A stretch of DNA of 64,000 bases, taken from the NCBI GenBank assembly GCA_026770025.1, contig JAMXDE010000029.1:434001-498000 (forward strand), given 5' to 3'. This DNA is from Craspedostauros australis. Taxonomy: Eukaryota; Bacillariophyta; Bacillariophyceae; Mastogloiales; Achnanthaceae. This document shows positions 44,940 to 64,000 of this stretch, piece after piece. The notes under the pieces are model-generated. The model was not told the DNA's origin. It made no database searches and saw only the letters and a list, made by a program, of their open reading frames with translations. Within the stretch, counting starts at the first letter, position 1. Each line of letters begins with the position of its first letter. A program made the translations under genes and the position numbers.

Positions 44940-46236
44940 CTTTCGTTCTTGTCTTGTTGCTTGCTCCTGATTCTTGAGATGTCCTCTGCAGAGTATTCTA
45001 CTCAACAAGTTGTGCTCTTGCTCTGGCTCTTGGTTCGGTTCCCAATTCGCTCCGTTTGCGCGTGTGTCAAACCATGACAATTCATTCTTTTGATGCGGTT
45101 TCATGATGGTTGGAGGAACAACGAAGTTAGCCATGGAAGTACGGACAGACGTATATCGCTCACCCACGACTCGACAATCTGCCCTATTCAGGATACGATA
45201 GTAAGTTCCTGACGATTGTAAATAAGAGGACCTAGATCATCCTATCATGCTGTGCATGGTATTTCTGCAAAGTTAAAAGATCCTGGGCCTCATGGTTAAC
45301 AAGTTAGTTATTGCATATATCTATGACCAGAGTTGGATTTCGTGTGCTGTTGTGACACGATCTGGAAGGGAAGACCTTGCTGACTGCCAGTTTCGGAGAG
45401 ACTGTTTGATGCAGTTAGTGAGGGGTGACCGTATGGGAAGTAGTAGTGCTGAAAATGAGTACATTAGTGTTGTTTGTACTGATCTGTTGGCAAGTTCCGC
45501 TCATGGATACTCTTGCGACTGTTGACAGTGGTGGTGGTGGTTGTTACGATTTCGTTTGCTATTTCATTACGTTGTTCCGATGCCTCTCAGAGTCTTCCAA
45601 TACTCTTGGTGTCTCCCAACTATGAGTGGGCATGTGAGATGCTCTCTTGCTATTACTTGTATTCTCTTTCTCTCTCTTGCATGTTGGTACTATGTGATAT
45701 TCTGTACTTGATACATACTCTGTATTTGATGCATATTCAGTCATCTTGTCCTCTACTGGTGCATTACTCCACAAGTAATCACCAAATGTCTTGTCCAAAT
45801 TCCTCTTTGTATATCCATGATCTTGATGTCACTCTGGTCATTGAATCTTCACCTTCTTGATCTGATGTGGACACAGCTGCCAACATGGTGACACAGTGAC
45901 ATCTTGTCGACATCAGCTGTTGGCTTCCACAGTCCTTCTGATTCCATATTCCATTGATGATGCAGTGGTCTGGCAAGGATATTGTCATTTGAGGTTTAGT
46001 TGGGAAGTACATCGATTCTTGCTGAACGCCATGCGTTTCTGTTGGTTGATGGACAGACAGGATTCCTGATGCTCTCATTTTTTATCGTTTACAAATTTCC
46101 TCCCGAAATTCTGAATGTTTCGATGTGAGCGAATTCGTGATGTGATTTCGATCAATCACAGTTCACTGTCGACACAAATATTTGTGCCGCTTGCGCGTAG
46201 AGTATAAGAGAACAATGGTTGAGCGATGCACATACA
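44940..46236. other. Intergenic region with a diverged dispersed repeat
   Basis: No intact gene is seen. Composition is more AT-rich than the preceding genes. The right part (45860-46078) is homologous to 56898-57110 and has a minus-strand frame of 99 codons. The left part holds T-rich sequence with frames open only by chance. Confidence 0.4.
45860..46078 (-). repeat. Decayed dispersed element, copy 1
   Basis: About 215 bp is alignable with 56898-57110 in the same orientation. Shared blocks include gaggtttagttgggaagta/caggtttagttgggaagta and gattccatattcc/gattccacattcc. On the minus strand both encode Y-F-P-T-K-P-(Q/E)-(M/V)-T, then I-I-N-G-(I/M)-W-N, so protein-level conservation suggests a once-coding mobile element. 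The family is not identified. Confidence 0.6.
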
Positions 46237-46489
46237 CATATCCGTAAGGAAAATTTTGTGCGGTGTTCTCGTAAGTGGACTCACCGATCCACTTATTTTG
46301 ACACCTTCGTGGTAAGTGGACTCACCGATCCAGTTACGTAAGTGGACTCACCAATCCACTTACGAGCACAAAATGACTCGTCAGAATACCCCCTCTCTGA
46401 GATTGGAATAGTTCGACTCGCCCAACCTCCATCTTTTCACTGATTCCTCGTGATGTTTTACACACTGCGTGTTTTGTCGTGTTATTCTT
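46237..46489 (+). repeat. Left terminal inverted repeat of the transposon
   Basis: Matches the reverse complement of 49942-50207. From about 46310 inward (ggtaagtggactcaccgatc to gtgttattctt) the match is almost perfect. The outer 70 bp are more diverged but share catatccgt and aggaaaat. It contains three hairpin units (taagtgga, then ctcacc(g/a)a, then tccactta) at about 46271, 46313 and 46338. Confidence 0.88.
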
Positions 46490-46992
46490 ACGACATAAAC
46501 TGTCCCGACGTTGCAGCTTCTCCTTCCAATGCGTTGTAACCTTTGTTGTATTGGTGGCGTGTACTACGTCTGGTGCTAGCGTTATAGAGGATATTGCACA
46601 TACATGTACTGTGGCAGAAGCCTGGGGTTACACGCATTATTATTAGTTCATCTATCTCACTCTTTTCCGCCCATTTCGACTGTGCAAGTACAGCAATTCT
46701 GTTCTGCTGTTCAGCCTTGCCTCGGCTGCCGACCTATGCACAGATCATATTGTTTGTGTCCTACTGAGCTCGCTTGCTACTCCTGTGGTGCCTTGGCTTG
46801 TTCGTGCCCACTTTGCCGTTGATGCATCCACGTCATCAAATTCGTTCTCATCTTCCTCTCGTTGAAGAGCTTCCATTGCTTCCGACACGCTCATTGTCTC
46901 TCCTCTACTACATCCAGGGCTAGCGTTCATGACCTACTCTTCAATGGTTGCTGCTTCTTCTCCTCTGGATTGTTTCTCCTCTTTATCTCCGA

Positions 46993-47331
46993 TTAGTTCT
47001 TGATAAGCGTGTGTGAGACTTGCTTTCGCATGTTGCTGCTCGCCTCCGATAGTTTCTTCGATTGCAGGTGCTTCGCTGTCCGTGCCTGCAGTTGCTCCTG
47101 CTGTTTTTCTCCACTACCATTTGCTTCTCCACCTTTGGCGGGTACAGTCTCCACAGCATTCAGCACTGCTGCTGCAAACTTCTCTCTTCCGAGCTGCGCT
47201 TGTACCTTGTCTGCCCACCCTGCTTCATCTTGGTGAGCAATTTGGTGGCAAGAGTTTTGTATGATCACCGCATCCTCTCCTTTTGCGACTTTCTTCAAAG
47301 CCACAGTGGGTGCGATGCCACATTTCTTCAG
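46993..47331 (-). pseudogene. In-frame continuation after the TGA of the transposon nuclease gene
   Basis: After the TGA at 47332-47334 the same frame stays open for over 100 codons (LKKCGIAPTVALKKV, then VIIQNSCHQIAHQDEAGWADK, then a K/Q-rich tail). The coding-like composition suggests one nonsense mutation in a longer protein, stop read-through, or a separate small frame. It has no strong ATG of its own close to the TGA. A separate functional gene seems less likely. Confidence 0.35.
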
Positions 47332-48799
47332 TCACTCCTGTCTCTCCCGCTTCATGAAGCCACAAGCATGAATGTAGCACCCAGGGCAAATCCATCTTGT
47401 CCTGGCTGAACATACAATGCAAGTTCCTCTTCTGTTCGGGTTGTACCATGATATGTGCTCTCCCTCTTGTAATTGTTTTGGAAGCTTTGTCTCCTCCTCC
47501 GAATGCAGGGAGGAGGACGAGCATACAAAGGGAATGAATTGCACAAACATTGTATTGGTTGACATGAGGACAAAGTCTGGCATGGTTGTAGTAATCGCGA
47601 TTCGAAGGAAGGAGCAGGTAGGAATAGCAGTTCTGAGTGACGCAAACACACTCACCGATCACCAAAACACTCCCTTTCACACCATATATGTGATGTGCAA
47701 CCTGCAGCATCTCTTCATCTGCTTTGATCAATGCACGATATGAAGGGCTGCGCGACTCCAAGAATATGTGGATGGTGCTTGGGATGCCATGGACCCAGTG
47801 TGCCTTTGTCTGATGCGCCTCTTCCTCCCTTTGCGTTTCAGCTGTTGTCCTTGTTTTCATTTCCACGATAACAACTTCGTCTGTTACATCGCTTGTGGGG
47901 TCTCCAGCAATACCAATGAAGTTGGCAGATGCGCGAGTGTAGCCTTTGCCGCCCTTCTTCACCAGGCCCACCCTAAATGCTGCACTGAATTGGCTGCTTC
48001 CTCCAAGCATGCCCTGGCAGTCCATTGCCGCTCGCATCAGCAGCTCCTCATTCATGTGGCCGAGTCTGGCATACCTGTTCGCCCGACCTTTCTGTGGTGT
48101 CATGAACCATGGCATCAGCGCTGTTTTGGCATGTTTTTTCAGGCTCTTCAGGTTCTGGAAGTCTGCAGAGCAATGGACCTCTGCCACATCCAGATTTGCA
48201 TCGTCTGCTGTCATGGTCATCGGCCCGGCCACCAGAGGATCACTGGCTGCGGCTGGTGTCGCTGATGGTGCAGTAGTTTGTGTAGATTGGTTCGTTTCGA
48301 TGATGCTGGTGTGGGATTGATTGTTGGTGGAATACTCCTCCTCTGCTCCCACCTTGTCAGTCTGCGATGCTTGCTCATTGTTTTCCGATGCAACCGGATT
48401 CATATATCTAAACTCTGCGTTTGCGGAGTGCGATCGACGTGTTTGAGAGCCGCCATGCCAAGATGAGGCAGAGATCCAAGACCTAAGATCAGGTTGATCA
48501 ACTGGGTATTGAAATGGATGGGTTGGGGAACCACAACAATCTGTGGTGGTACAGCTGAGTTGATGAACCTCATCAAGAAGCAATTCGTATATGTACCGAC
48601 GGGCATTCCCCACCGAAACTGGGAACTCTTCATTGTCAGGGTCAAGAAGGAGCCAACAAGGATCCATGCTTGCCAGCCGTTCTGCCTCTGATTGGTTGTG
48701 CTCTTTGCATGGGGTGCTTGTGTTTGTTGTGGATGCAGCATCACCTGCAGTAGTTGCGCTGAAATTTTTGGTAGAGGCATTGGCGGTTGGCGTTGTCAT
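47332..48799 (-). CDS. Transposon-borne YqaJ-like PD-(D/E)XK nuclease with C-terminal zinc ribbon
   Basis: Inferred exons are 48799-47656 and 47576-47332. The 79-nt intron has donor GTGAGTG and acceptor ATGCCAG, is phase 1, and gives 462 residues. Splicing joins VKGSVLVI to DFVLMSTNTMF and brings the zinc ribbon into frame; without it the frame runs on to 47225 through sequence of poorer quality. The nuclease signature is GHMNEELLMRA (about 247), FIGIAGDPTSD, then VVIVEMKTRT (about 310, the ExK), then EEMLQVAHHIYGVKGSVLVI, the order of lambda-exonuclease/YqaJ enzymes. The C-terminus has C-x2-C-x7-C-x2-C-x4-C (CIVCSARTRWICPGCYIHAC), like the cysteine domain at the end of piggyBac-type transposases. 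The first 230 residues are T/S/N-rich. The start at 48799 is the first ATG of the frame. It may be the element's cutting enzyme or an accessory. Confidence 0.6.
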
Positions 48800-49941
48800 G
48801 GATGGAAGAAGGTTTCCTCATGATCCACTCTTGGCAATGTAGGAATCACCACTTCGATCAACATCAGCATCAATGTTATCAGCGCTGATGGCGTTGGATT
48901 CCAACACGCTATGCGTGTCCTCGTCGCTTTCAGCCATCAGGAGAACGAAGTACTTGATCACTGTCAAAGGTGTCGTCAACGCAGTTGGGGTCGAGGTGGT
49001 TGTCGTCGCTGTCGTCATCAGTCCAGTCAACACTCCGTTTCACAAGGGATAGAAGGGATGTTGAAGCACGCATGATGCAGCAGAGTGATACAGAGTGTAG
49101 AAGGCAGCAATGATTCGTAGGTATGCAGACGACAGTGTGGAACAAGGATTGGAAGGGGTTCAGATGGAATGAACATTGGAACGGATGCAGATGGAGAAAG
49201 ATGAAATCCAACGGGTGTGTAGAAGACACTGACAGGCAATGTGAAAGGGAGATTGCAAGGCGAGCGATGAAGCTGCGGAGCGCAGTCTTGGGTTTTCTGG
49301 TTGGCAACAGCTGGATCAAGCCATGGCCCATCGCGGAGGCGAGTCTGGTGTGGTGACGGAGGATGACGTCCGGAAAGCCTGGCTGCGTTTTGGTTGGGTG
49401 GTACGAGACAAAGTTCTGTTTCGTGGAAGTGCGCAGAGCGGTGGAAGGTCTGGGCTGGAGGGTGGCATTGAGCGGTCTGATGGCGCAGGGCAGGCAACGG
49501 GGGATGAGCGTGTGGGTGACTACAGGACTGGACAGAATCGGATTGGACAGGAGGCCAGGAGTCCGGACGGCGACACCCACGTCCGCACATGGGCTATGGG
49601 GGTGACTCACTGCTGTTCAGCTGGGGGTGCGTGCATCGTGGCCTGGTGATGGTGCTCCAGGATACAAGGCCCACCTCCAGTGCCCTGTGTGGGGCTACAC
49701 AATCTCCCAGGTTGCGCAGTGTACAGGCACCTGGGTCTGTGGCTGTTAAAACGCGGAAATGACAGGAGTGCATATATTCGTGACATACTCGACCTACCTG
49801 GTGCAGCCAGGCATGTGCGGGTGAGGCTAAAGCCCTCAGGCACTCCCTATTATGGGTTTAATTGTTGTGGGTTATTGTTATTGTTATTTTTATTATTATA
49901 ATATTAATACGAGAGGGAAATGCACCATGTGTTGTTGGGTT
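48800..49941. other. Transposon interior without recognised genes
   Basis: Between the nuclease gene and the right TIR. The minus frame 48930-49610 and a short acidic frame near 48830-48950 (AESDEDTHSVLESN) are open but have no family pattern. An acidic N-terminal exon joined to the nuclease by a further intron is possible but I could not find convincing splice sites. Confidence 0.3.
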
Positions 49942-50207
49942 GGAAGAATAACGCGACAAAACACGCAGTGTGTAAAACATCACGAGGAATCAGTGAAAAG
50001 ATGGAGGTTGGGCGAGTCGAACTATTCCAATCTCAGAGAGGGGGTATTCTGACGAGTCATTTTGTGCTCGTAAGTGGATTGGTGAGTCCACTTACGTAAC
50101 TGGATCGGTGAGTCCACTTACGAAGCAACAAAAATGCCAAGTGGATTGGTGAGTCCACTTAGCACTAAACGGACTCACGAGTCCTTTTATTTTCCTCACG
50201 GATATGC
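49942..50207 (-). repeat. Right terminal inverted repeat of the transposon
   Basis: Inverted partner of 46237-46489. Hairpin units occur at about 50070-50094, 50097-50121 and 50138-50161, plus a variant (aaacggactcacgagtccttt) at 50167-50187 that the left end lacks. The inner boundary with the left end is at gaagaata (49942-49949). Confidence 0.88.
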
Positions 50208-51011
50208 ACATTCCAAAAACGGACGCCAATGCCAATGCAGATGTTCTATCGGCAGTAGCCATAGCAGGAGCAATAGCAATGAACACGCATGTATCAACAG
50301 CATGAACTGCGCTGTCTTGTCTTCATGCCAATACTCTATACTCCATTCTTCCTCCATCTCGCCGATCGTTTCCTCGAGCTGTTCCGTCAATGACCTGAGA
50401 GCGTGAAGCATCAGACGTTCCGGTATCTGCTGGTACTCCAACTGTTGCTGCGGCATAGGTTGGGAGAACGGTGCAACGAGTATGCTGCCCCACTGGCACA
50501 CTCTCCTACTCGCACGCTGCCAACTCCGTCACTGACTGGTACCTACACCCGACCTTTCAGCCTCTTGAGGTTGGAGATGGTCACAAGTGATGCTAACCGC
50601 TTCCAAAGCAACGTGAGCGTGGACCGGGATGACGACGAGGAAGAGGACGATATCATGACATGGCATGACGACGGCATGCCGACGGCAACAGTGCTACGGC
50701 TAGTATCAACAATCATTACCGCGCAGCTTCATTCGGATGCACTTGATGCGTGGCACAGATTACATCCGTAGGTTGGAGTGGATGGGTAGGCAAGAGCAAA
50801 GGTCTACTAGAACAGTATCGTACTCGAAGAGTATCCGTACGAGTATTGTATTACATCATGTTGTATTGCATTGCATTGCGCCAAGTCTGTTCCTACGTAT
50901 GGGTAACGATGAGTCGACAATCCATGCTCATTCATTTTCTAATTGCTAACTAATGCCGCGCAGATCGATACTTCCTTAGAGCCACTCTTCTCTGTGCTTC
51001 CTCATGTTCCC
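50208..51011. other. Flank between transposon and FAAL copy 1; partial reading frames
   Basis: From 50441 rightward this is part of the inverted-repeat arm. The plus frame 50403-50771 (with ...RFQSNVSVDRDDDEEEDD..., 122 codons, ending about 240 bp from the FAAL stop) is duplicated at 63670-63996 and may be the 3' end of a convergent gene. On the left its upstream part would be cut off by the transposon. The minus frame 50196-50501 is also open. Neither is recognised. Confidence 0.3.
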
Positions 51012-54000
51012 TCATGCTTCCTCATCTCCTGATCCATCAGATATCGACTGTGATCTCTTCGTGTCTGATGTTTGCATGTCGCTGACCATCTTCCATGGGG
51101 CGTGCTCCACCAAGGCGGCGCCCTTCGCTGCTGAGCCCTTCCTCATCAGCGCAAACGACATTTGGTGCATCAGACCATCGATGTAGGATGTTCCCACCGA
51201 CAACGTGGAAAACATACCGTAATGACCGCAGACGATGGAGTCATCGATCACTGTCCTATCAGCAAATGTGAGCAGCGGAGCTTCATAGATGCGGGATCCA
51301 AAGTACAGCATCTTTCCCTGGATGGTCGCCCCTCGGAATCGCAACAGAGCGTTCATCATCGGTGTGCCCCAAACAACTGACTCGAAGGACCACGACTGAA
51401 AGAACTGGCTGTAGGTAAAGTAGACCATGTGCAATGAAACCGACCATGGTCCTCCGCGTGCGACGCTTCCCAAGAGAGTGATAGTCTCGATCACTCGATA
51501 GAGAACGAGCCAGATCATGGTCTGGATGATGGTGGATGCCGCAATGGCGATCGGAGCCAGCGCCGTTGTCGTGTCTGGCTTGAGTATGATAGCCAACAGC
51601 TCATATGATGGGATGAGGCTGACCGCCACTGCCGCAAGCATAATGATATGCAGCAGGGTGTTGTTGATCATGAGCATCCAGAACTGGGATGCGGAGAGAG
51701 GCACGTTGCTTGGATGATGGTCGGTGTTGATGATATCGCTGGTGACGTGGGTGCCAGGAGTCACCATGGCTCTGCGGATGGTCACACCAGGGCCGCAAGC
51801 CAGTGACATGCCGATGGTGCTGTCTTCGATGGTGATCGCCTTGTATTGGCCATCTTCTTCGACATCGAGGTCACAAAAGGAGATGAAGGATCGCCTGACC
51901 GTGACGAGGTCCAGCTTGGATGGAGGGAACAGCATTGTCATCGCTCTCGATCTCATATCGATGTCCATGCCGTGTGCCATGAGGACGAGGTTCCAAAGTT
52001 GGGAGTACAATGTTAAGTCGAGGATCAGTGTTGTTCCGACGAAGAAGTGGAAGTCGCAAGCCCAGTCAGCAAACTTAGAGAATGTTCCTGTCCGCGCTGG
52101 GCCGGACCGCTTCTTGCCGATCAGCACCCACTTGAGAATGATGCTGGTGATCACGAAGCAGACGGACGTGAGGCCAAAGAGGGCGATCCAGTAGACAATG
52201 GGTGAGTACCTCCAATCTGCAAGCCCATCTCCGACCAACTGATCAGCAGCCACGAAGCATGCGAAGGCGAAGTACAGCTCGACGGCGAGCCAAACAAGCT
52301 TCATCATTCCCAGCACGATCGATGGGCTGGTGGATGTGTCGGATGCCGTGTCTCCACTCGCTGTTCCAGTTGCGGATGCATCGTCATCGCCCTTGAGAGT
52401 CGACGAAGGAGCATCGACAAATGCTGGGTTGCCTCTGATCGAGGTGTTTGGTGGTGCTTGAGCACCTTCCACCAGCACGGATATGCTCTGCACCTGGCAG
52501 CCAGAGCCGACGCTGGCTCCAGGAAGCAAGGCGCCATTGACCGTAGCGTTGGATCCAACCTGAGTCTTGCGAAACCTCACGCTGGGGCCTTCCTGCTCAT
52601 CCTTCCACGGGCCAAACATGCGGCATCGGATGTGCGTGTTGACCGTGGCGCCAGCACCAACCTTGACCAGGTCAAACTCCCGGACGGTCCCGTTCACGCT
52701 GGCCGAGCGATGGATGTCGGCACCCATCAGGTAGTAGAACAGCGTCATCAAAGGTGTGTTGCCAATGATGCGGCCGACGAAGCGGTCCCAGATATCGACC
52801 AACCGATCGACGAACCACCACCTGATGAAATAGATGTTGGTCTGATTGGCATACCCTTCTGTGTATCTGCCAATGACAATCCACTTCGAGAGGATGATCA
52901 CGAAGGTGAGCGTAATAGCCCAGACTGGGACGATCAAGGGTAGCAGCACCCATTCATGACCGGAGAGAACGTCGGAGTCGGCGATGACTTTTCCAACTTC
53001 GTACGCTGGGACGATGGGGAGCGAGAAGATGAGGACCGCGACGAGCGCGCCGATGGCCTGGATGATGGCGACGGCCGATTGGGACAGAAACTTCTCATTC
53101 GGGATGGAGAGGATCCTCTTGAGGGTTGGGAGGTTGGTTGGTAGGGGCTCTCCCTTTGATGCCTCGAGGAAAGTCTTGAGATCCATCACTCTCGGAAAGA
53201 GCTGGATGATATGTGCGGGAAGGGCTGTGTTGTATCGCTCAGAAAGGGACTGGCGGAGCTCCAGCTCCATCATGGAAGACAATCCAACATCCTTCCACTC
53301 ATCATCGGGGCTGACTTCAGTTCCTGTACAGCTCTTCACAAGATCATAGAAGTCCATCTCTTCGATGTTGACGTTCTCGATGATGGACTTTCTCATCGAG
53401 AGTCGCTTGGATTGACTCGCAAGATTGCTGCCGTGCGAACTGAAGAAGTTCGATTTTCCGATGACATCCAGCACCGTCTTCTGCGTTCCTTCATGGAGAC
53501 GCTGGCGATTCTGGCGTCTCTGGATCTTTCCGCTCGTCGTTTTGGAGATGGATCGCTCTTCCACGGCTGCGACTGTTGCCGGTGTCAATCCGATCTGTGA
53601 GATGACGTTCCTCCTGACCTGTTGGCAGACCGTCTCGGCATCCTTCGCGTGGCTAGCTCGGATCTCGAAGACGATCTCCAGCTGCCCATCGTTGCCCGAA
53701 TCATTGGACGAGAAGGCGGCCACGCAACCTGGACGGACAGCGGACGATGCCTCCTCGACGGCGTGCTCGATGTCTTGGGGATAGTAGTTGACACCGTTGA
53801 CGATGATGATGTCCTTCTTGCGGCCGCAGATGTAGAGGTAGTCGTCTTGATAGAATCCGTAGTCACCTGTGCGCAAGTACATCTTGCCATCGGCACTGGC
53901 ATCGGCATTGGACGATGAATCACCCTCCACTCGCAGTGTGGCTTGGAAGGCCTCCTTGCTGAGCTGTGGCTGATTGTAGTATCCAGCGGTAACGGATGCT

Positions 54001-55369
54001 CCCGCGACCCAGATCTCCCCAGTGACGTTGTCTGGGCGTTGCACGCGGGTGTCCGGGTCCACGATGATGATGTCGATGGAGCTGTGCAGATTGCTGCGCT
54101 GGGCGATAGCCACAAACGGCTGGAGATCTTCACCTTCGCGGATGGTTGAGAGATAGAAGTCGTGATTGTAGCAGGTGCCAACGACGTTCTCCGCCAGTCC
54201 ATACGCTGCGAGGAACCAGTCCTTGCGCAGGCCGTGTGGGCAGAATGTATCGGCGAAGTTCTTCTCGGTGTCAAGCCGGATTGGTTCAGCGGCGTTCTGG
54301 AGATGAAGCACACTTGAGAGGTCCAGGTTGGGGATGGGATTAGTCTTCCCTTTGGGGCTCTCCACGGCCTCGTTGTACTTGCGGGTGACCAGCCGATAAC
54401 CGAAGTCAGGGGCGGCGCTGAAATGGCATTTGTGCTGGGACATGAGGTCGACCCAGAGCAACGGGTTGCGGATGAATGTGACAGGGGATATCATGTGGAC
54501 TCGGGAATTCGATGCCAGTGGCACAATCACCATTTGAATGAGGCCCATGTCGTGGTACTGGGGCAACCATGAAAAGGTGGTAAATCGCTCCAAGATCTGC
54601 GTCTCGTTTGCACCTTTTTCAAAGCATGTGAGGAAACTGCTATGGAATAGTTCAATGTTGGCTCTCAGTGCGTTGTGGGTCACCATGACACCCTTGGGGT
54701 CGCCCGTGCTTCCAGATGTATACTGGAGGAAGGCGAGGTCCGAACCTTTGATGTTGGGTTCATCGAATGAAGGTGGCGACGACGATGAGCGGCCGGACAT
54801 GAGGCTGGAAAGGAAGCCATTCTTGGCTTGCTTGTTCTTGCCGTTGGTCTTGTTGGCGATGAACGGATCGTGACGGATAATGCGATCGGTGACTTTGTAC
54901 TTGACCCCGCTCGGCCACAAGGAGCGGCTCTTGGACGCCGGATTGGCGCGATCGGCAGCGCGGAGCATGTTGATGGATGTTTGGGTGAGGATGAGTGCTG
55001 GTGCACAATCCCCGATGACCTTGTTCATTTTGGTGAGAGACTTGACGAGCGGTGGTCCGGGAGGGTAGACCAGGACAGCTGTCACTCCTGCGCGGAGACA
55101 TCCCACGAACATGGCGAAGAAGTGGAGTCCAAAGTCGTAGCAGAGGACGACACGGTCATCTTTCTTGGCACCCCACTTGTTGCGGATGAGGTGAGCGCAG
55201 TGTCCTGCTTCATCCCAGAGCTGTTGGAAGGTGTAGTTGTTGGTTGCCTTGCCTTTTTCATTGTACCAGGTGGAGAAGACGGTGTCGGACTTGAGTTCGA
55301 CGATGTACTTGATGTGTTCGATGAAGGACTTGGTTTGGATGGACTTGTGGATGATCTCGTGCTCAGTGG
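50441..55369 (-). repeat. Large inverted repeat, left arm
   Basis: Every position x in this arm pairs with 114441-x in the right arm. I checked several coding and non-coding stretches by eye and all open frames in both arms have identical lengths and products, including third-frame shadows. No mismatch was found from 55369/59072 outward to 50441/64000, at least 4929 bp. The outer end is not visible because the window ends at 64000. Confidence 0.95.
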
Positions 55370-55460
55370 CGTTGGCGTTGGTGATGGTGTTGGCGGTACC
55401 GGCTTCGATGTCATCGTCGACGGCGCGGTTTGCATCGGAGGGAGCGGATGGGTTACTCAT
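51012..55460 (-). CDS. FAAL-carrier-Pls-like membrane synthetase, copy 1
   Basis: 1482 residues, one exon. Its first 31 residues (MSNPSAPSDANRAVDDDIEA...) differ from copy 2; residues 32-1482 appear identical to copy 2 residues 40-1490, where the domains are described. In outline: a fatty acyl-AMP ligase domain, a carrier domain with GLSSMMELEL, then six membrane helices interleaved with hexapeptide/C-like soluble domains. It is transcribed on the minus strand, divergent from copy 2 across the spacer, so the two promoters lie in the non-duplicated part and may drive different expression of nearly the same enzyme. The ATG at 55460 is the first in frame. Confidence 0.9.
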   Translation of the reverse strand: MSNPSAPSDANRAVDDDIEAGTANTITNANATEHEIIHKSIQTKSFIEHIKYIVELKSDTVFSTWYNEKGKATNNYTFQQLWDEAGHCAHLIRNKWGAKKDDRVVLCYDFGLHFFAMFVGCLRAGVTAVLVYPPGPPLVKSLTKMNKVIGDCAPALILTQTSINMLRAADRANPASKSRSLWPSGVKYKVTDRIIRHDPFIANKTNGKNKQAKNGFLSSLMSGRSSSSPPSFDEPNIKGSDLAFLQYTSGSTGDPKGVMVTHNALRANIELFHSSFLTCFEKGANETQILERFTTFSWLPQYHDMGLIQMVIVPLASNSRVHMISPVTFIRNPLLWVDLMSQHKCHFSAAPDFGYRLVTRKYNEAVESPKGKTNPIPNLDLSSVLHLQNAAEPIRLDTEKNFADTFCPHGLRKDWFLAAYGLAENVVGTCYNHDFYLSTIREGEDLQPFVAIAQRSNLHSSIDIIIVDPDTRVQRPDNVTGEIWVAGASVTAGYYNQPQLSKEAFQATLRVEGDSSSNADASADGKMYLRTGDYGFYQDDYLYICGRKKDIIIVNGVNYYPQDIEHAVEEASSAVRPGCVAAFSSNDSGNDGQLEIVFEIRASHAKDAETVCQQVRRNVISQIGLTPATVAAVEERSISKTTSGKIQRRQNRQRLHEGTQKTVLDVIGKSNFFSSHGSNLASQSKRLSMRKSIIENVNIEEMDFYDLVKSCTGTEVSPDDEWKDVGLSSMMELELRQSLSERYNTALPAHIIQLFPRVMDLKTFLEASKGEPLPTNLPTLKRILSIPNEKFLSQSAVAIIQAIGALVAVLIFSLPIVPAYEVGKVIADSDVLSGHEWVLLPLIVPVWAITLTFVIILSKWIVIGRYTEGYANQTNIYFIRWWFVDRLVDIWDRFVGRIIGNTPLMTLFYYLMGADIHRSASVNGTVREFDLVKVGAGATVNTHIRCRMFGPWKDEQEGPSVRFRKTQVGSNATVNGALLPGASVGSGCQVQSISVLVEGAQAPPNTSIRGNPAFVDAPSSTLKGDDDASATGTASGDTASDTSTSPSIVLGMMKLVWLAVELYFAFACFVAADQLVGDGLADWRYSPIVYWIALFGLTSVCFVITSIILKWVLIGKKRSGPARTGTFSKFADWACDFHFFVGTTLILDLTLYSQLWNLVLMAHGMDIDMRSRAMTMLFPPSKLDLVTVRRSFISFCDLDVEEDGQYKAITIEDSTIGMSLACGPGVTIRRAMVTPGTHVTSDIINTDHHPSNVPLSASQFWMLMINNTLLHIIMLAAVAVSLIPSYELLAIILKPDTTTALAPIAIAASTIIQTMIWLVLYRVIETITLLGSVARGGPWSVSLHMVYFTYSQFFQSWSFESVVWGTPMMNALLRFRGATIQGKMLYFGSRIYEAPLLTFADRTVIDDSIVCGHYGMFSTLSVGTSYIDGLMHQMSFALMRKGSAAKGAALVEHAPWKMVSDMQTSDTKRSQSISDGSGDEEA

Positions 55461-56184
55461 GTTGGAATGCGTTGTTGAAACGAGGGGTTGGTTGCAGATG
55501 TGGTTGTGTTATGTTGTGTTGCGATTGGTGCAGCGTTGTTACTTTGATCTTGTCGATTTGTGAGTTGTCGGTTCTCGGGCTTCAGAATTGTGAGCAGTTG
55601 GAAAAATCATCGGCGTTGTGTTACACCGGGTGCCTTCTTCGGACACATAAGTGCTCGTACGAGTGCTGTCGCTGCATTTGTTATCCAGCCCAGATGAATT
55701 CCTTCATCAGATCGTGAGACAATCGCAAGATGCGGCTCTCTGTCGCCTCCGGTGGCCGCACTTTGGATGATGGGTCCAGATTCGTGAGTGCGAAAGGAGA
55801 AGACTGCACACCAGCACTCCGAGCAACACGAAATCGAACACAGTTCTGCCGAACACAGTGGAGCATAGAAACATTTTGTCGCGAAAAAACAAAAACATAT
55901 GTCCGATCGCCGGACGAAGCAGCGTTCATGTGGTGAGTGGTGAAGAACCCCCAAAACAGTCGAGCAATTATTGGAGTGGGAAGAGCTCATACCCCTGCAC
56001 CCACAAAACTCTGACAGATGCGTCAGTCACACACCCTGAACAGGAACAGAAACGCGAACAACTCGAGATGACTCATGTTTGGTGTGTCCTTTTCTTGTTC
56101 TCTTTTCTTGGTTGGAGTTGAAGTTCATCTAAAGAACAGACTACTTTCCGCGCTAGTGTGTCCCATGTATCCCCATGAAATTGA

Positions 56185-56211
56185 TTTTGGCGCGTCAATT
56201 TTGGCGCGAAA
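56185..56211. promoter_or_regulatory. Two tandem E2F-like sites
   Basis: ttttggcgcgtcaa is followed at once by ttttggcgcgaaa; each matches the TTTSGCGC core. They sit about 725 bp upstream of the copy 1 ATG, inside the spacer. Confidence 0.5.
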
Positions 56212-56332
56212 CCCTCCGCCTACGAATACGGAAAACCCCCTTTCCCCTCCTTCTCCCACTCTCATTCATGAATTATTGCGGACTCAAATCCCACTTGATT
56301 CACTGAATTCAATGTACTCCGGGAACTATATG

Positions 56333-56453
56333 TGTTGGAAATCCAGGGTTATAGTTAGTACTAGATATCTAATCCGCTGTTAGAAACTGTACCGTTTTAG
56401 AACTGTGAGCTCAATCTCACTTTCTCTTCAAATTTCATTTCTCGTTGCAGGCA
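56333..56453. repeat. LTR-like direct repeat, copy A
   Basis: About 121 bp beginning TGTTGGAAATCC and ending GCAGGCA (TG...CA ends). Homologous in order to 57607-57753: gttagaa, then gaactgtgagctc, then tctca, then gcaggcatt. The copies are diverged with indels. It may be a long terminal repeat of an old retroelement. Confidence 0.5.
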
Positions 56454-56897
56454 TTTGTTGCGGTGGCATCATGGGGTATCACGATGTTCCTCGAGTGCTT
56501 CCCTCTTCATTCATCATGCCTTGCTTGTGCATCTTTGTATTCTTTCCTCTGCGTCCTCGTCTTGGCATCTCATTGTTTGTATCTGCATATTCGTAGCCGT
56601 CTACATTCGCATGGTAGGAATCTGCAGTCCTGTGTGCTTGTCTGTCATATGTTTTGATCCTTGATCCTGTGACGCCATCATCTCACGATTGGTGTTGTTA
56701 TCTCGTTACTATACACAGCGAAATCACACGAGTCCTTCAAGAGAGATCAAGTCTTTCAGGACGAGGGTGACAAGCTGGTGAGTGAAGACACTGTTTGGGT
56801 TGAGTGACTTCTGGTTCTATGTTATCTTCACTGAGATGGATCTCATGTTGCTGTGTTCAAGATCAGCTCTCGGTCATTGCACCTCTGCAATCGTATC

Positions 56898-57110
56898 CTG
56901 ATGTGGAGATGACCCATGATGTGGCGATGATGTCTTCTGTGTCGACGTCACTCATCACCATTCCATGGCTCTGTCGATTCCACATTCCGTTGATGATGCT
57001 TGAGGCTGTCAGAGGTGTTGTCACTTCAGGTTTAGTTGGGAAGTATATCAGGTCAAATTGGACATCACATGTTTGCCAGGTGGTGGCCAGACCGAATCTC
57101 TGATGTTCTC
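56898..57110 (-). repeat. Decayed dispersed element, copy 2
   Basis: Homologous to 45860-46078 in the same orientation, diverged but with a conserved minus-strand reading (YFPTKPEVT, IINGMWN). It lies between LTR-like repeats A and B. Confidence 0.6.
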
Positions 57111-57237
57111 TCTAGTGTGTCCCTTATGCCGAAAATCATGTGTCTGAGGAAAGCATCGTTTCAGCACATACCGGGACAGACTAATCAGAAAACGAATCAG
57201 GTGAATAAAGCGTTGTGCTAATAGGTGTCATCCTTGG

Positions 57238-57291
57238 TGATGTTCCAAATCTGCGGTTGTTCTGATCCTTTCTGATGTTCCAAACCTGTGG
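57238..57291. repeat. Short direct repeat pair
   Basis: tgatgttccaaa(t/c)ctg(c/t)gg occurs at 57238-57256 and 57273-57291, period 35 bp. Confidence 0.7.
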
Positions 57292-57606
57292 CGTTTCTTG
57301 TCCACAGGAGGGGCGCGTGCTGCTCCCCAGAGGGGGTGCATCACTTGCCCACTGCCCTGCTGTCTGTTCTGACTGACGTTGCTGTCTGCATGGTTGCCAT
57401 GGTTGGTTTGGTATCGGGACCTCCTGATCCGCGTTTGGTGTGGTTCTTGTATTGCCAGAGGACAGGCTACCCTTTCTTCATGGTGGGACTGAGATCAATC
57501 ACGTTCGTGTCCTTAATCATGGTCGTAATGACATGGTATTCAAATGTGTGACGAATAGTTACCAAAGGTGTGACGAATAATGATGAGAGGTGCGGCAATC
57601 ATGTAT

Positions 57607-57753
57607 GTTGGAAATCCGGGGTGGTGTGATAGTAGGAAGCTAATTGTTTGTTAGAATCTACTTCTCTGAACTGTGAGCTCTTCATTGCTCTCAATCTCAA
57701 AGTTCGATCTCCTCCTGAGATCACCATAGGTCCCTCTGTTGGTCTAGCAGGCA
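57607..57753. repeat. LTR-like direct repeat, copy B
   Basis: About 147 bp, TGTTGGAAATCC to GCAGGCA, the partner of 56333-56453. The pair would enclose a 1.15-kb interior. No matching target-site duplication was found outside the pair. Confidence 0.5.
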
Positions 57754-57975
57754 TTCATCTTGCATTCACTGCAAATTCATCATGGACATGCGTGCACCAC
57801 CGAGTACCCCATGTTCGTGCACAAAAGCACGTTGTCCTCCACTGATAGTTTCGATGCCTTAGACATCGCCGAGTTGTAGGCATCACACAGGTCGGTTCAT
57901 TCAACCAGATCATGGTCTCCCATTTGTCACGGGAACACCTTGGTTGGGAGCTCATTCAGCTCCTCGACCATCACA

Positions 57976-58005
57976 CATCTCCGATCATCTCCGATCATCT
58001 CCGAT
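57976..58005. repeat. 10-bp tandem repeat, three units
   Basis: catctccgat repeated three times without interruption. Confidence 0.8.
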
Positions 58006-58708
58006 GTTTCGCCTGTCGTTTCTCCAATCACTTTGCCGATCACTTCACCGGCTTCCTGGAGGTTCCTCATACCAGGTTCGTTCACAGGCCATCTCACTCT
58101 TCGTGACATTGGCCTTCCTCCGGTACTCTTTTCTCATTGGTTGCGACATGGGGGCCGTGGTCGCTCGTATCGTGATGTTGGTCACGATTCCAACATCCCT
58201 GCCCCCTGCGACATCCACGTGTGATTGGCATTCCTGTATTGAGGTCACGAACGCCAAGGCACGGTTCGCATTCGGCACGTGTCGTTCTCCGTCATCAAAA
58301 CACGTGCAGCTCACATTTTTCTGTCACAAAGATCCAAATGTGGGAGTTGCGGTAATTTAGCATATCATGACGTTCGGCTCCTCACTCCTGGGAGGTACGG
58401 CAATTCGGTATTTCAGAACACCCGATTCCTGACACGTATGCAGCGTGTGCAACTGTGTTTGACCTGTGTGGCTCCATTTCTTCGATCGGCCCACAAAACT
58501 TCAAATCGGCTTGGGGAAACCAGCGTCGCTGTGGCGCGTCTGTGGAGACGGGCTGGGTTAAATGAATTTCCTGGTGCCCCTTGCGGAAAAGTGACCCCCT
58601 TTGATTATTGATCTGGTCGTGGAACCACCGCTGTTGCATCCGCCACCGAAATCCACTCGTTGTTGGGGGAAGAGCCGAGGATTACCCCTCCATCGAAAGG
58701 TGGCGAGG

Positions 58709-58782
58709 CCTCCGGATTGAGCTCTTCACACTTGCTTCTGCCGTTGCCTCTGGATTGAGCTCTTCACACTTGCTTCGCTGTT
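58709..58782. repeat. 38-bp tandem duplication upstream of FAAL copy 2
   Basis: Two units sharing cct(c)(c/t)ggattgagctc then ttcacacttgcttc, starting at 58709 and 58747, about 175-250 bp before the copy 2 ATG. Copy 1 has no counterpart. Confidence 0.8.
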
Positions 58783-58956
58783 GCCACGGTTGCTTGGACT
58801 TCAACCACGAAGATTGGCTGGAGAGGTGTCTCAAACGCGCAACGAAACACAAATCAAATGCATGCCGACACAAAATAAACAAACTAACAAACAAACTCAC
58901 AAAACCAACGAACAAACACAGCATAATCATCCTCCCACAGAAAGTGTTTCGTCACC

Positions 58957-61900
58957 ATGGATAAACAACCCTATTGTGTGGACTCGAAGAGCTCCACGGC
59001 TGCGCAAGCACAGCGCGATGTTGTCTCTGTCAACGACATCGAAGCTGGCACCACCAAGGCCAACACCATCACCACTGAGCACGAGATCATCCACAAGTCC
59101 ATCCAAACCAAGTCCTTCATCGAACACATCAAGTACATCGTCGAACTCAAGTCCGACACCGTCTTCTCCACCTGGTACAATGAAAAAGGCAAGGCAACCA
59201 ACAACTACACCTTCCAACAGCTCTGGGATGAAGCAGGACACTGCGCTCACCTCATCCGCAACAAGTGGGGTGCCAAGAAAGATGACCGTGTCGTCCTCTG
59301 CTACGACTTTGGACTCCACTTCTTCGCCATGTTCGTGGGATGTCTCCGCGCAGGAGTGACAGCTGTCCTGGTCTACCCTCCCGGACCACCGCTCGTCAAG
59401 TCTCTCACCAAAATGAACAAGGTCATCGGGGATTGTGCACCAGCACTCATCCTCACCCAAACATCCATCAACATGCTCCGCGCTGCCGATCGCGCCAATC
59501 CGGCGTCCAAGAGCCGCTCCTTGTGGCCGAGCGGGGTCAAGTACAAAGTCACCGATCGCATTATCCGTCACGATCCGTTCATCGCCAACAAGACCAACGG
59601 CAAGAACAAGCAAGCCAAGAATGGCTTCCTTTCCAGCCTCATGTCCGGCCGCTCATCGTCGTCGCCACCTTCATTCGATGAACCCAACATCAAAGGTTCG
59701 GACCTCGCCTTCCTCCAGTATACATCTGGAAGCACGGGCGACCCCAAGGGTGTCATGGTGACCCACAACGCACTGAGAGCCAACATTGAACTATTCCATA
59801 GCAGTTTCCTCACATGCTTTGAAAAAGGTGCAAACGAGACGCAGATCTTGGAGCGATTTACCACCTTTTCATGGTTGCCCCAGTACCACGACATGGGCCT
59901 CATTCAAATGGTGATTGTGCCACTGGCATCGAATTCCCGAGTCCACATGATATCCCCTGTCACATTCATCCGCAACCCGTTGCTCTGGGTCGACCTCATG
60001 TCCCAGCACAAATGCCATTTCAGCGCCGCCCCTGACTTCGGTTATCGGCTGGTCACCCGCAAGTACAACGAGGCCGTGGAGAGCCCCAAAGGGAAGACTA
60101 ATCCCATCCCCAACCTGGACCTCTCAAGTGTGCTTCATCTCCAGAACGCCGCTGAACCAATCCGGCTTGACACCGAGAAGAACTTCGCCGATACATTCTG
60201 CCCACACGGCCTGCGCAAGGACTGGTTCCTCGCAGCGTATGGACTGGCGGAGAACGTCGTTGGCACCTGCTACAATCACGACTTCTATCTCTCAACCATC
60301 CGCGAAGGTGAAGATCTCCAGCCGTTTGTGGCTATCGCCCAGCGCAGCAATCTGCACAGCTCCATCGACATCATCATCGTGGACCCGGACACCCGCGTGC
60401 AACGCCCAGACAACGTCACTGGGGAGATCTGGGTCGCGGGAGCATCCGTTACCGCTGGATACTACAATCAGCCACAGCTCAGCAAGGAGGCCTTCCAAGC
60501 CACACTGCGAGTGGAGGGTGATTCATCGTCCAATGCCGATGCCAGTGCCGATGGCAAGATGTACTTGCGCACAGGTGACTACGGATTCTATCAAGACGAC
60601 TACCTCTACATCTGCGGCCGCAAGAAGGACATCATCATCGTCAACGGTGTCAACTACTATCCCCAAGACATCGAGCACGCCGTCGAGGAGGCATCGTCCG
60701 CTGTCCGTCCAGGTTGCGTGGCCGCCTTCTCGTCCAATGATTCGGGCAACGATGGGCAGCTGGAGATCGTCTTCGAGATCCGAGCTAGCCACGCGAAGGA
60801 TGCCGAGACGGTCTGCCAACAGGTCAGGAGGAACGTCATCTCACAGATCGGATTGACACCGGCAACAGTCGCAGCCGTGGAAGAGCGATCCATCTCCAAA
60901 ACGACGAGCGGAAAGATCCAGAGACGCCAGAATCGCCAGCGTCTCCATGAAGGAACGCAGAAGACGGTGCTGGATGTCATCGGAAAATCGAACTTCTTCA
61001 GTTCGCACGGCAGCAATCTTGCGAGTCAATCCAAGCGACTCTCGATGAGAAAGTCCATCATCGAGAACGTCAACATCGAAGAGATGGACTTCTATGATCT
61101 TGTGAAGAGCTGTACAGGAACTGAAGTCAGCCCCGATGATGAGTGGAAGGATGTTGGATTGTCTTCCATGATGGAGCTGGAGCTCCGCCAGTCCCTTTCT
61201 GAGCGATACAACACAGCCCTTCCCGCACATATCATCCAGCTCTTTCCGAGAGTGATGGATCTCAAGACTTTCCTCGAGGCATCAAAGGGAGAGCCCCTAC
61301 CAACCAACCTCCCAACCCTCAAGAGGATCCTCTCCATCCCGAATGAGAAGTTTCTGTCCCAATCGGCCGTCGCCATCATCCAGGCCATCGGCGCGCTCGT
61401 CGCGGTCCTCATCTTCTCGCTCCCCATCGTCCCAGCGTACGAAGTTGGAAAAGTCATCGCCGACTCCGACGTTCTCTCCGGTCATGAATGGGTGCTGCTA
61501 CCCTTGATCGTCCCAGTCTGGGCTATTACGCTCACCTTCGTGATCATCCTCTCGAAGTGGATTGTCATTGGCAGATACACAGAAGGGTATGCCAATCAGA
61601 CCAACATCTATTTCATCAGGTGGTGGTTCGTCGATCGGTTGGTCGATATCTGGGACCGCTTCGTCGGCCGCATCATTGGCAACACACCTTTGATGACGCT
61701 GTTCTACTACCTGATGGGTGCCGACATCCATCGCTCGGCCAGCGTGAACGGGACCGTCCGGGAGTTTGACCTGGTCAAGGTTGGTGCTGGCGCCACGGTC
61801 AACACGCACATCCGATGCCGCATGTTTGGCCCGTGGAAGGATGAGCAGGAAGGCCCCAGCGTGAGGTTTCGCAAGACTCAGGTTGGATCCAACGCTACGG

Positions 61901-63429
61901 TCAATGGCGCCTTGCTTCCTGGAGCCAGCGTCGGCTCTGGCTGCCAGGTGCAGAGCATATCCGTGCTGGTGGAAGGTGCTCAAGCACCACCAAACACCTC
62001 GATCAGAGGCAACCCAGCATTTGTCGATGCTCCTTCGTCGACTCTCAAGGGCGATGACGATGCATCCGCAACTGGAACAGCGAGTGGAGACACGGCATCC
62101 GACACATCCACCAGCCCATCGATCGTGCTGGGAATGATGAAGCTTGTTTGGCTCGCCGTCGAGCTGTACTTCGCCTTCGCATGCTTCGTGGCTGCTGATC
62201 AGTTGGTCGGAGATGGGCTTGCAGATTGGAGGTACTCACCCATTGTCTACTGGATCGCCCTCTTTGGCCTCACGTCCGTCTGCTTCGTGATCACCAGCAT
62301 CATTCTCAAGTGGGTGCTGATCGGCAAGAAGCGGTCCGGCCCAGCGCGGACAGGAACATTCTCTAAGTTTGCTGACTGGGCTTGCGACTTCCACTTCTTC
62401 GTCGGAACAACACTGATCCTCGACTTAACATTGTACTCCCAACTTTGGAACCTCGTCCTCATGGCACACGGCATGGACATCGATATGAGATCGAGAGCGA
62501 TGACAATGCTGTTCCCTCCATCCAAGCTGGACCTCGTCACGGTCAGGCGATCCTTCATCTCCTTTTGTGACCTCGATGTCGAAGAAGATGGCCAATACAA
62601 GGCGATCACCATCGAAGACAGCACCATCGGCATGTCACTGGCTTGCGGCCCTGGTGTGACCATCCGCAGAGCCATGGTGACTCCTGGCACCCACGTCACC
62701 AGCGATATCATCAACACCGACCATCATCCAAGCAACGTGCCTCTCTCCGCATCCCAGTTCTGGATGCTCATGATCAACAACACCCTGCTGCATATCATTA
62801 TGCTTGCGGCAGTGGCGGTCAGCCTCATCCCATCATATGAGCTGTTGGCTATCATACTCAAGCCAGACACGACAACGGCGCTGGCTCCGATCGCCATTGC
62901 GGCATCCACCATCATCCAGACCATGATCTGGCTCGTTCTCTATCGAGTGATCGAGACTATCACTCTCTTGGGAAGCGTCGCACGCGGAGGACCATGGTCG
63001 GTTTCATTGCACATGGTCTACTTTACCTACAGCCAGTTCTTTCAGTCGTGGTCCTTCGAGTCAGTTGTTTGGGGCACACCGATGATGAACGCTCTGTTGC
63101 GATTCCGAGGGGCGACCATCCAGGGAAAGATGCTGTACTTTGGATCCCGCATCTATGAAGCTCCGCTGCTCACATTTGCTGATAGGACAGTGATCGATGA
63201 CTCCATCGTCTGCGGTCATTACGGTATGTTTTCCACGTTGTCGGTGGGAACATCCTACATCGATGGTCTGATGCACCAAATGTCGTTTGCGCTGATGAGG
63301 AAGGGCTCAGCAGCGAAGGGCGCCGCCTTGGTGGAGCACGCCCCATGGAAGATGGTCAGCGACATGCAAACATCAGACACGAAGAGATCACAGTCGATAT
63401 CTGATGGATCAGGAGATGAGGAAGCATGA
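58957..63429 (+). CDS. FAAL-carrier-Pls-like membrane synthetase, copy 2
   Basis: 1490 residues, one exon; the ATG at 58957 is in good context (caccATGG). Residues about 45-690 form a fatty acyl-AMP ligase: YTSGSTGDPKGVMVTH (about 254), AAYGLAENVVGT (about 427), RTGDYGFYQDD (about 538), GRKKDIIIVNGVNYYPQDIE (about 550-568). The last motif is FAAL-like rather than CoA-ligase-like. Residues about 700-780 form an acyl/peptidyl carrier domain with GLSSMMELEL; the pantetheine Ser is probably 737. The rest has six hydrophobic helices (about 800-828, 844-872, 1054-1080, 1095-1120, 1268-1300, 1311-1335) around soluble segments with hexapeptide-like turns (SASVNGTVREFDLVKVGAGA, TTVNGALLPGASVGSG in form). 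This is the layout of the NRPS terminal domain TIGR02353 found in poly-lysine synthetase Pls. Inferred role: activate a fatty acid as acyl-AMP, load it on the carrier and transfer it at a membrane. The product is unknown. Confidence 0.9.
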   Translation: MDKQPYCVDSKSSTAAQAQRDVVSVNDIEAGTTKANTITTEHEIIHKSIQTKSFIEHIKYIVELKSDTVFSTWYNEKGKATNNYTFQQLWDEAGHCAHLIRNKWGAKKDDRVVLCYDFGLHFFAMFVGCLRAGVTAVLVYPPGPPLVKSLTKMNKVIGDCAPALILTQTSINMLRAADRANPASKSRSLWPSGVKYKVTDRIIRHDPFIANKTNGKNKQAKNGFLSSLMSGRSSSSPPSFDEPNIKGSDLAFLQYTSGSTGDPKGVMVTHNALRANIELFHSSFLTCFEKGANETQILERFTTFSWLPQYHDMGLIQMVIVPLASNSRVHMISPVTFIRNPLLWVDLMSQHKCHFSAAPDFGYRLVTRKYNEAVESPKGKTNPIPNLDLSSVLHLQNAAEPIRLDTEKNFADTFCPHGLRKDWFLAAYGLAENVVGTCYNHDFYLSTIREGEDLQPFVAIAQRSNLHSSIDIIIVDPDTRVQRPDNVTGEIWVAGASVTAGYYNQPQLSKEAFQATLRVEGDSSSNADASADGKMYLRTGDYGFYQDDYLYICGRKKDIIIVNGVNYYPQDIEHAVEEASSAVRPGCVAAFSSNDSGNDGQLEIVFEIRASHAKDAETVCQQVRRNVISQIGLTPATVAAVEERSISKTTSGKIQRRQNRQRLHEGTQKTVLDVIGKSNFFSSHGSNLASQSKRLSMRKSIIENVNIEEMDFYDLVKSCTGTEVSPDDEWKDVGLSSMMELELRQSLSERYNTALPAHIIQLFPRVMDLKTFLEASKGEPLPTNLPTLKRILSIPNEKFLSQSAVAIIQAIGALVAVLIFSLPIVPAYEVGKVIADSDVLSGHEWVLLPLIVPVWAITLTFVIILSKWIVIGRYTEGYANQTNIYFIRWWFVDRLVDIWDRFVGRIIGNTPLMTLFYYLMGADIHRSASVNGTVREFDLVKVGAGATVNTHIRCRMFGPWKDEQEGPSVRFRKTQVGSNATVNGALLPGASVGSGCQVQSISVLVEGAQAPPNTSIRGNPAFVDAPSSTLKGDDDASATGTASGDTASDTSTSPSIVLGMMKLVWLAVELYFAFACFVAADQLVGDGLADWRYSPIVYWIALFGLTSVCFVITSIILKWVLIGKKRSGPARTGTFSKFADWACDFHFFVGTTLILDLTLYSQLWNLVLMAHGMDIDMRSRAMTMLFPPSKLDLVTVRRSFISFCDLDVEEDGQYKAITIEDSTIGMSLACGPGVTIRRAMVTPGTHVTSDIINTDHHPSNVPLSASQFWMLMINNTLLHIIMLAAVAVSLIPSYELLAIILKPDTTTALAPIAIAASTIIQTMIWLVLYRVIETITLLGSVARGGPWSVSLHMVYFTYSQFFQSWSFESVVWGTPMMNALLRFRGATIQGKMLYFGSRIYEAPLLTFADRTVIDDSIVCGHYGMFSTLSVGTSYIDGLMHQMSFALMRKGSAAKGAALVEHAPWKMVSDMQTSDTKRSQSISDGSGDEEA

Positions 63430-64000
63430 GGGAACATGAGGAAGCACAGAGAAGAGTGGCTCTAAGGAAGTATCGATCTGCGCGGCATTAGTTAGCAATT
63501 AGAAAATGAATGAGCATGGATTGTCGACTCATCGTTACCCATACGTAGGAACAGACTTGGCGCAATGCAATGCAATACAACATGATGTAATACAATACTC
63601 GTACGGATACTCTTCGAGTACGATACTGTTCTAGTAGACCTTTGCTCTTGCCTACCCATCCACTCCAACCTACGGATGTAATCTGTGCCACGCATCAAGT
63701 GCATCCGAATGAAGCTGCGCGGTAATGATTGTTGATACTAGCCGTAGCACTGTTGCCGTCGGCATGCCGTCGTCATGCCATGTCATGATATCGTCCTCTT
63801 CCTCGTCGTCATCCCGGTCCACGCTCACGTTGCTTTGGAAGCGGTTAGCATCACTTGTGACCATCTCCAACCTCAAGAGGCTGAAAGGTCGGGTGTAGGT
63901 ACCAGTCAGTGACGGAGTTGGCAGCGTGCGAGTAGGAGAGTGTGCCAGTGGGGCAGCATACTCGTTGCACCGTTCTCCCAACCTATGCCGCAGCAACAGT
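59072..64000 (+). repeat. Large inverted repeat, right arm (runs off the window)
   Basis: Partner of 50441-55369. Identity begins abruptly at 59072 inside codon 39 of FAAL copy 2 and is still complete at the last base of the window, so the full arm is longer than 4.9 kb. Confidence 0.95.
63430..64000. other. 3' flank of FAAL copy 2 with partial convergent frame
   Basis: Mirror of 50441-51011. Contains the minus frame 63670-63996, which continues beyond the window and whose product (DRDDDEEEDDIMTWHDDG) is not recognised. A TACGAGTA octamer (as tactcgta) lies at 63596-63603. Confidence 0.35.

Follow-up and report, generated by a model that had tools for sequence, protein, structure and literature searches.

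The window analyzed here, a 64,000-nt stretch of contig JAMXDE010000029.1 from the diatom Craspedostauros australis, carries two long genes, LEFT and RIGHT, arranged head to head and 3.5 kb apart (Table 1). Their products are the same over 1451 residues, from residue 32 of LEFT and residue 40 of RIGHT through to the stop codon. Two repeated sequences accompany the pair: the 828-bp repeat of the spacer recurs at least 39 times over lengths of 700 bp or more, with 87-96% identity (among the best 40 of 1238 candidates), and the ~3.9-kb element has 8 other long copies at 86-97%. A search for Rfam families in 44000-64000 found none. At the opposite end of the window, one open frame at 331-2991 matched both mTERF and DUF6824, an apparently unusual pairing, and within the 862-aa open frame at 4178-6766, repeats at an 84-bp offset (5288-5542) give rise to repeated serine/lysine-rich segments.

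Table 1. Coordinates of the paired genes, their identical arms, and adjoining features (window positions).
Feature	Position	Strand	Remarks
Gene 1 (LEFT), 1482 aa, single open frame	51012..55460	-	FAAL-like, carrier, and Pls/PosA-like C-terminal region
Gene 2 (RIGHT), 1490 aa, single open frame	58957..63429	+	Architecture as gene 1
Left arm, identical tract of 5,083 bp	50287..55369	-	Covers most of gene 1 and extends 725 bp into its 3' flank; no mismatch to 59072-64154
Right arm, identical tract inside the window	59072..64000	+	Runs on 154 bp beyond the window end
Outer edge, homologous but diverged 3' flank	50219..50286	-	Differs from 64155-64222 at 6 of 68 positions
Class A 5' module of LEFT, comprising its first 31 codons and the sequence upstream of them	55370..56112	-	From DNA alignments to other copies
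Class B 5' module of RIGHT, comprising its first 39 codons and the sequence upstream of them	58436..59071	+	From DNA alignments to other copies
High-copy repeat of 828 bp, solo-LTR-like, GTATG on both sides	57608..58435		In the spacer; RIGHT class B homology ends there
Repeated mobile element of ~3.9 kb, inverted ends of 183 nt at 98%	46272..50206		Adjoins the outer edge of the left arm; left limit provisional

In the encoded protein, the AMP-binding domain was matched by the Pfam AMP-binding model at 5.8e-56. Among the best 60 of 137 matches to solved chains, a polyketide synthase and saframycin synthetase B came at the top, followed by the fatty-acid--AMP ligases FadD32, FadD23, and others, from E 5e-57. 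The best NCBIfam model was fatty-acid--AMP ligase (289.6 bits, under its cut-off of 775), and the adenylating domain, judged from its sequence, resembles fatty acyl-AMP ligases (FAAL-like). The scans for C-terminal families covered 19 of the 22 family genes read in detail (all except RIGHT, L018, and L111). The carrier domain (PP-binding) was detected in 18 of these 19 at E up to 1; the window protein scored 20.6 bits there, slightly under the cut-off of 20.8. All 19 matched TIGR02353 (Pls/PosA) over a membrane region containing hexapeptide-like parts, with the window protein, at 67.6 bits, far short of the curated cut-off of 423.1. For the C-terminal part, solved structures gave only weak matches. 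By analogy, the enzyme would presumably activate a fatty acid, load it onto the carrier, and pass it on, at the membrane, to an acceptor such as an amine. In the loci of the best 80 of 157 relatives found by scanning genome contigs with the window protein (flank up to 3 kb), the membrane/hexapeptide profile had no matches, so the combination of FAAL and Pls-like parts was not found in these 80; when the profile scan was repeated with a positive control, 1,685 open frames yielded the control alone at E up to 10. Plasmid records produced partial matches, with 0 of 840 covering 80% of the query. Within the scope of those 80 relatives and the plasmid records, a bacterial origin of the whole FAAL plus Pls-like architecture was rejected.

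The initial annotation, made from the window alone, described the two genes as lying in inverted arms of 4.9 kb or more that looked identical throughout, non-coding 3' flanks included, and that stopped being so abruptly within the first 40 codons, where the codons beyond were still homologous and diverged. Our base-by-base comparison agreed with this description. With positions paired as x + y = 114441, zero mismatches occurred over 50441-55369, and scattered differences were absent. Once the next 20 kb of the contig were added, the longest common substring measured 5083, corresponding to an exact match of 50287-55369 with 59072-64154 (5,083 bp, no mismatch or indel); because the match continues in the added sequence, the true arm is ~150 bp longer than the window shows. 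Of the tract, 50287-51011 (725 bp) lies beyond the reading frame, in the 3' flank. At the inner edge, which falls at codon 31 of LEFT and codon 39 of RIGHT, the first mismatch is at 55370, and DIEAGT is present in both proteins among the diverged homologous codons that follow. The outer edge adds a second boundary of diverged homologous sequence, which had escaped the initial annotation; if the 6 mismatches found there were spread at random over 5,151 bp, the probability of all of them falling within those 68 bp would be ~5e-12. Beyond 50219, homology ends, about a dozen bases short of the repeated mobile element.

The identity extends to silent positions. None of the 731 fourfold-degenerate sites in the tract differs between the arms, compared with 3 of the 8 fourfold sites preceding it, and the uninterrupted run amounts to 733 fourfold sites, 2 of them before the junction. 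LEFT differs from its nearest other copies at 6.1% (L012), 6.6% (L013), 8.6% (L014), and 9.0% (L011) of fourfold sites, and at a divergence of 6-9% the probability of zero differences at 731 sites is ~1e-20. In a genome search with 50441-55000 of the left arm, the two arms were the only 100% matches among the best 40 of 57 candidates, with the next four at 93-94%. Among the 22 family genes read, which form 231 pairs, no exact run exceeded the 5,083 bp shared by LEFT and RIGHT, the runner-up being 436 bp. The run-length comparison and the probability estimates led us to reject chance as the cause of the identity, and protein-level selection was rejected because the silent sites and the 3' flank are identical as well.

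Outside the tract, the two genes have different affinities. The 5' module of LEFT aligned with those of L011, L012, L014, L015, L020, and L107 at 80-94% in pieces, with shorter matches of 75-79% to L105, L106, L108, and L016, a class common to copies on contigs C63, C13, C7, C8, and C24. The 5' module of RIGHT aligned with L013 (97%), L103 (87-92%), L019 (86-94%), and L112 (80-82%), a class common to copies on contigs C12, C9, and C17; a single match of 34 bp links it to L015, a copy of class A. The closest 5' matches sit on other contigs (best 90% for LEFT and 97% for RIGHT), and only 34 bp align between the modules of LEFT and RIGHT themselves. Since each module matches other copies and not its partner, the two represent two family classes, as defined by one threshold. 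On these alignments, LEFT and RIGHT look like two different family members placed head to head.

The direction of change was read from class-diagnostic sites, defined by L013 and L019 (class B) against L011, L012, and L014 (class A). Before the junction, LEFT was class A at 32 of 32 diagnostic sites, and just inside the tract (54800-55369), both genes were class A at 11 of 11 sites. In the DNA alignment, RIGHT tracked L013 and L019 as far as the junction, and LEFT from there on. As the core beside the junction is of class A in both genes and the start of RIGHT is of class B, RIGHT is the gene that changed class, and LEFT is the likely donor, a reading drawn from the class sites at the inner junction only. 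The class of RIGHT before the junction rests on the DNA alignments; in the codon alignment, RIGHT was ambiguous there (13 A and 11 B of 32 sites) because its N-terminus is aligned differently. Farther along, in the distal core (51012-53999), both genes had a mixture of states (12 A and 11 B among 23 sites) that indicated no donor, as would be expected of a family with older exchanges. The 3' side points elsewhere, in that the flank of RIGHT beyond the tract, and not that of LEFT, resembles L011 (84% over 300 bp).

The genome assembly, 74.8 Mb in 90 contigs, contains at least 32 near-full-length, intron-free, stop-free copies of the gene (protein search, 32 of 62 candidates scored), of which 22, including LEFT and RIGHT, were read in detail. 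Similar tracts of identity, all shorter, occur elsewhere in this family. An exact run of 436 bp, with 163 consecutive identical fourfold sites, is common to L019 and L103, which both belong to contig C9; for L020 and L103, which sit on different contigs, the run is 388 bp with 147 such sites. Overall, both pairs differ at 20-21% of fourfold sites, and mosaic edges are visible in their identity profiles. Starts and bodies also combine in conflicting ways: L012 and L107 are 92% identical in the 5' module and 70% in the core, L013 and L103 are 91.5% identical in the 5' module and 75% in the core, and L012 and L013 share 96% of the core with starts that align over 37 bp only. The 5' modules and cores are reassorted within the family. 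A permutation test across the 231 pairs returned 18 at P up to 0.001 (floor 0.0005), values uncorrected for shared ancestry and multiple testing, and from this comparison we rely on the longest runs only.

The point at which such combinations change over is recurrent. It first came to notice in 10 chosen pairs; the count was then extended to all cross-class pairs whose cores are at least 85% identical, the switch being taken as the first 60-nt stretch at 93% or more. Twenty pairs among the 22 genes combine a core identity of at least 85% with different 5' classes, and all 19 besides LEFT-RIGHT switch at -25 to +57 nt from the window-pair junction; these pairs share genes and are hence not independent. 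The same-class pairs served as a control, and 18 of these 22 were already alike further upstream (-79 to -364 nt). The four same-class pairs without an earlier start all involve L106, L107, or L108, and class A is therefore loose there. Because the cross-class pairs switch at the same point, the abrupt edge in the window is the edge of the family's shared core. Tracts that started in the core would end at the junction because homology ends there, and no special recombination site is needed.

Several further observations concern the surroundings of the family. Three partial FAAL gene copies lie ~8.7 kb apart and in the same orientation at C54:122834-141798, aligning with no more than ~1.5 kb of the query, at 77%. 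At C9:2024068-2032556, C9:2433084-2441567, and C11:710408-717547, a FAAL family copy has a silicon transporter gene within ~1-2.5 kb of it, two of these three places perhaps being one duplicated segment. The silicon transporter family itself (PF03842) is very large, with 88 stretches in the whole genome, 28 of them near full length and without stops, and many further fragments, some with stops (e.g., on contigs C2, C9, C11, C24, C37, and C61). The light-harvesting family PF00504 was represented genome-wide by 61 matched stretches. Together, the two families point to a photosynthetic silicifier, either a diatom or a near relative such as Parmales. The range of silicon transporter copies in diatoms and Parmales, in the excerpt available of a 2026 comparative paper (PMC13403384), runs from 2-3 to >30.

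Taken together, these results make it probable that the body and 3' flank of RIGHT were recently replaced by a copy of LEFT through non-reciprocal ectopic recombination between two class-distinct family members. The tract of excess identity is bounded on both sides by homologous, more diverged sequence; tract and flanks show conflicting relationships to other paralogs; and the excess identity covers silent sites as well as untranslated sequence. The starting state would have been two members of the family standing head to head, class A on the left and class B on the right, with RIGHT then overwritten from LEFT, probably by double-strand-break repair using the inverted neighbor as a template. 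A single event would account for the tract, and several overlapping events would look alike. On the 5' side, copying would have stopped where the class-specific 5' module meets the shared core, and on the 3' side within the last 68 bp of shared flank, in each case at the point where homology gave out. The outcome would be one enzyme sequence under two different upstream regions, which may matter for regulation. With the Phaeodactylum mutation rate of 4.77e-10 per site and generation, as given in the excerpt available of PMC6604790, zero differences in 5,083 bp would make the event younger than ~6.2e5 generations (95%), if this borrowed rate applies.

Perfect identity could also be produced by the assembly, had arms that truly differ by ~5% been collapsed into one consensus, and the coincidence of the identity edges with the drop in LEFT-RIGHT homology is what a collapse would give too. 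However, three pairs of family copies at 96-97% overall (L109-L111, L011-L014, and L017-L018) retain scattered differences, and none of them has an exact run longer than 263 bp; the assembly therefore kept copies that close apart. The locus moreover lies mid-contig (484-498 kb of 788 kb), and the gene starts differ in class. Diverged homologous flanks belonging to two classes are not what a fold-back chimera would leave, and that form of artefact was rejected; a collapse of the arms we regard as unlikely. We give slightly less credence again to a recent 5-kb inverted duplication of the LEFT body, placed in frame behind a class B start without any conversion between resident paralogs. Such a duplication would yield the same perfect identity, and a crossover between paralogs may make chimeras of this kind, but it needs both an in-frame join at a homologous codon and a homologous, diverged outer flank, features that come from homologous replacement without special assumptions.

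The initial annotation had favored an old inverted duplication homogenized by gene conversion. The conversion half of that proposal is upheld by the two-ended tract, the silent sites, and the 3' flank, whereas the old inverted duplication finds no support, given 5' ends of different classes. An old duplication kept alike by continual arm-to-arm conversion, its ends diverging independently, would fit the inverted orientation and the homogenized body; yet either 5' end resembles copies on other contigs far more than it resembles its partner, so the ends of LEFT and RIGHT did not simply diverge in place, and we consider this history very improbable. Conversion between two resident members of different class is thus our preferred reading of the pair. 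Extending it to the whole family is more tentative: possibly, though we would not favor it on present grounds, the family is a recombining cassette system in which a few interchangeable 5' modules are joined at one recurrent point to enzyme cores, with conversion repeatedly moving cores between modules or modules between cores and so reassorting regulation and enzyme sequence, the window pair being its latest product.

In this silicifying alga, the pair would offer a clean case of a letter-perfect conversion tract with both of its ends visible. Conversion of this kind would explain how identical enzyme copies come to start with unrelated upstream regions, it cautions against dating such duplicates by their identity, and it makes the reassortment of promoters and cores testable within one large gene family. 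In the available text of a 2018 paper (PMC6114903), the authors state that they knew of no earlier finding of non-crossover gene conversion in diatoms; the genes treated there, SuSIT1/SuSIT2 of Synedra ulna subsp. danica, are silicon transporter genes, and that text does not describe diverged homologous edges or a donor. Literature searches on gene conversion in diatoms, judged by titles and abstract openings, showed no further recognizable case.

As for the product, the closest known counterparts are the Pls/PosA-type single-module NRPS (TIGR02353) and FAAL enzymes, with which it has in common an adenylating domain, a carrier, and a membrane region with hexapeptide-like parts; it differs from Pls/PosA in that the adenylating domain is FAAL-like and in a C-terminal score far under the cut-off of that model. 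A literature search on fatty acyl-AMP ligases in diatoms brought up two papers, each with a single mention of the enzyme. For the arrangement of the genes, the nearest parallels are Amy-p/Amy-d and Hsp70Aa/Ab of Drosophila, linked inverted ("palindromic") pairs whose bodies are kept alike by ectopic conversion, as described in the portion available of PMC3924832. LEFT and RIGHT are likewise two linked paralogs in opposite orientation with homogenized bodies, separated by an unshared spacer that holds a high-copy repeat, and the flanks of the Amy genes, according to the same excerpt, evolve independently. In the Drosophila pairs, concerted evolution has been shown between species, whereas our comparison draws on one genome; here, in turn, the tract includes 3' flank outside the frame and the 5' ends belong to two family-wide classes. 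This type of event is thus already known from Amy and Hsp70, and the more interesting part of the present case is the mosaic of 5' modules and cores that runs through the whole family.
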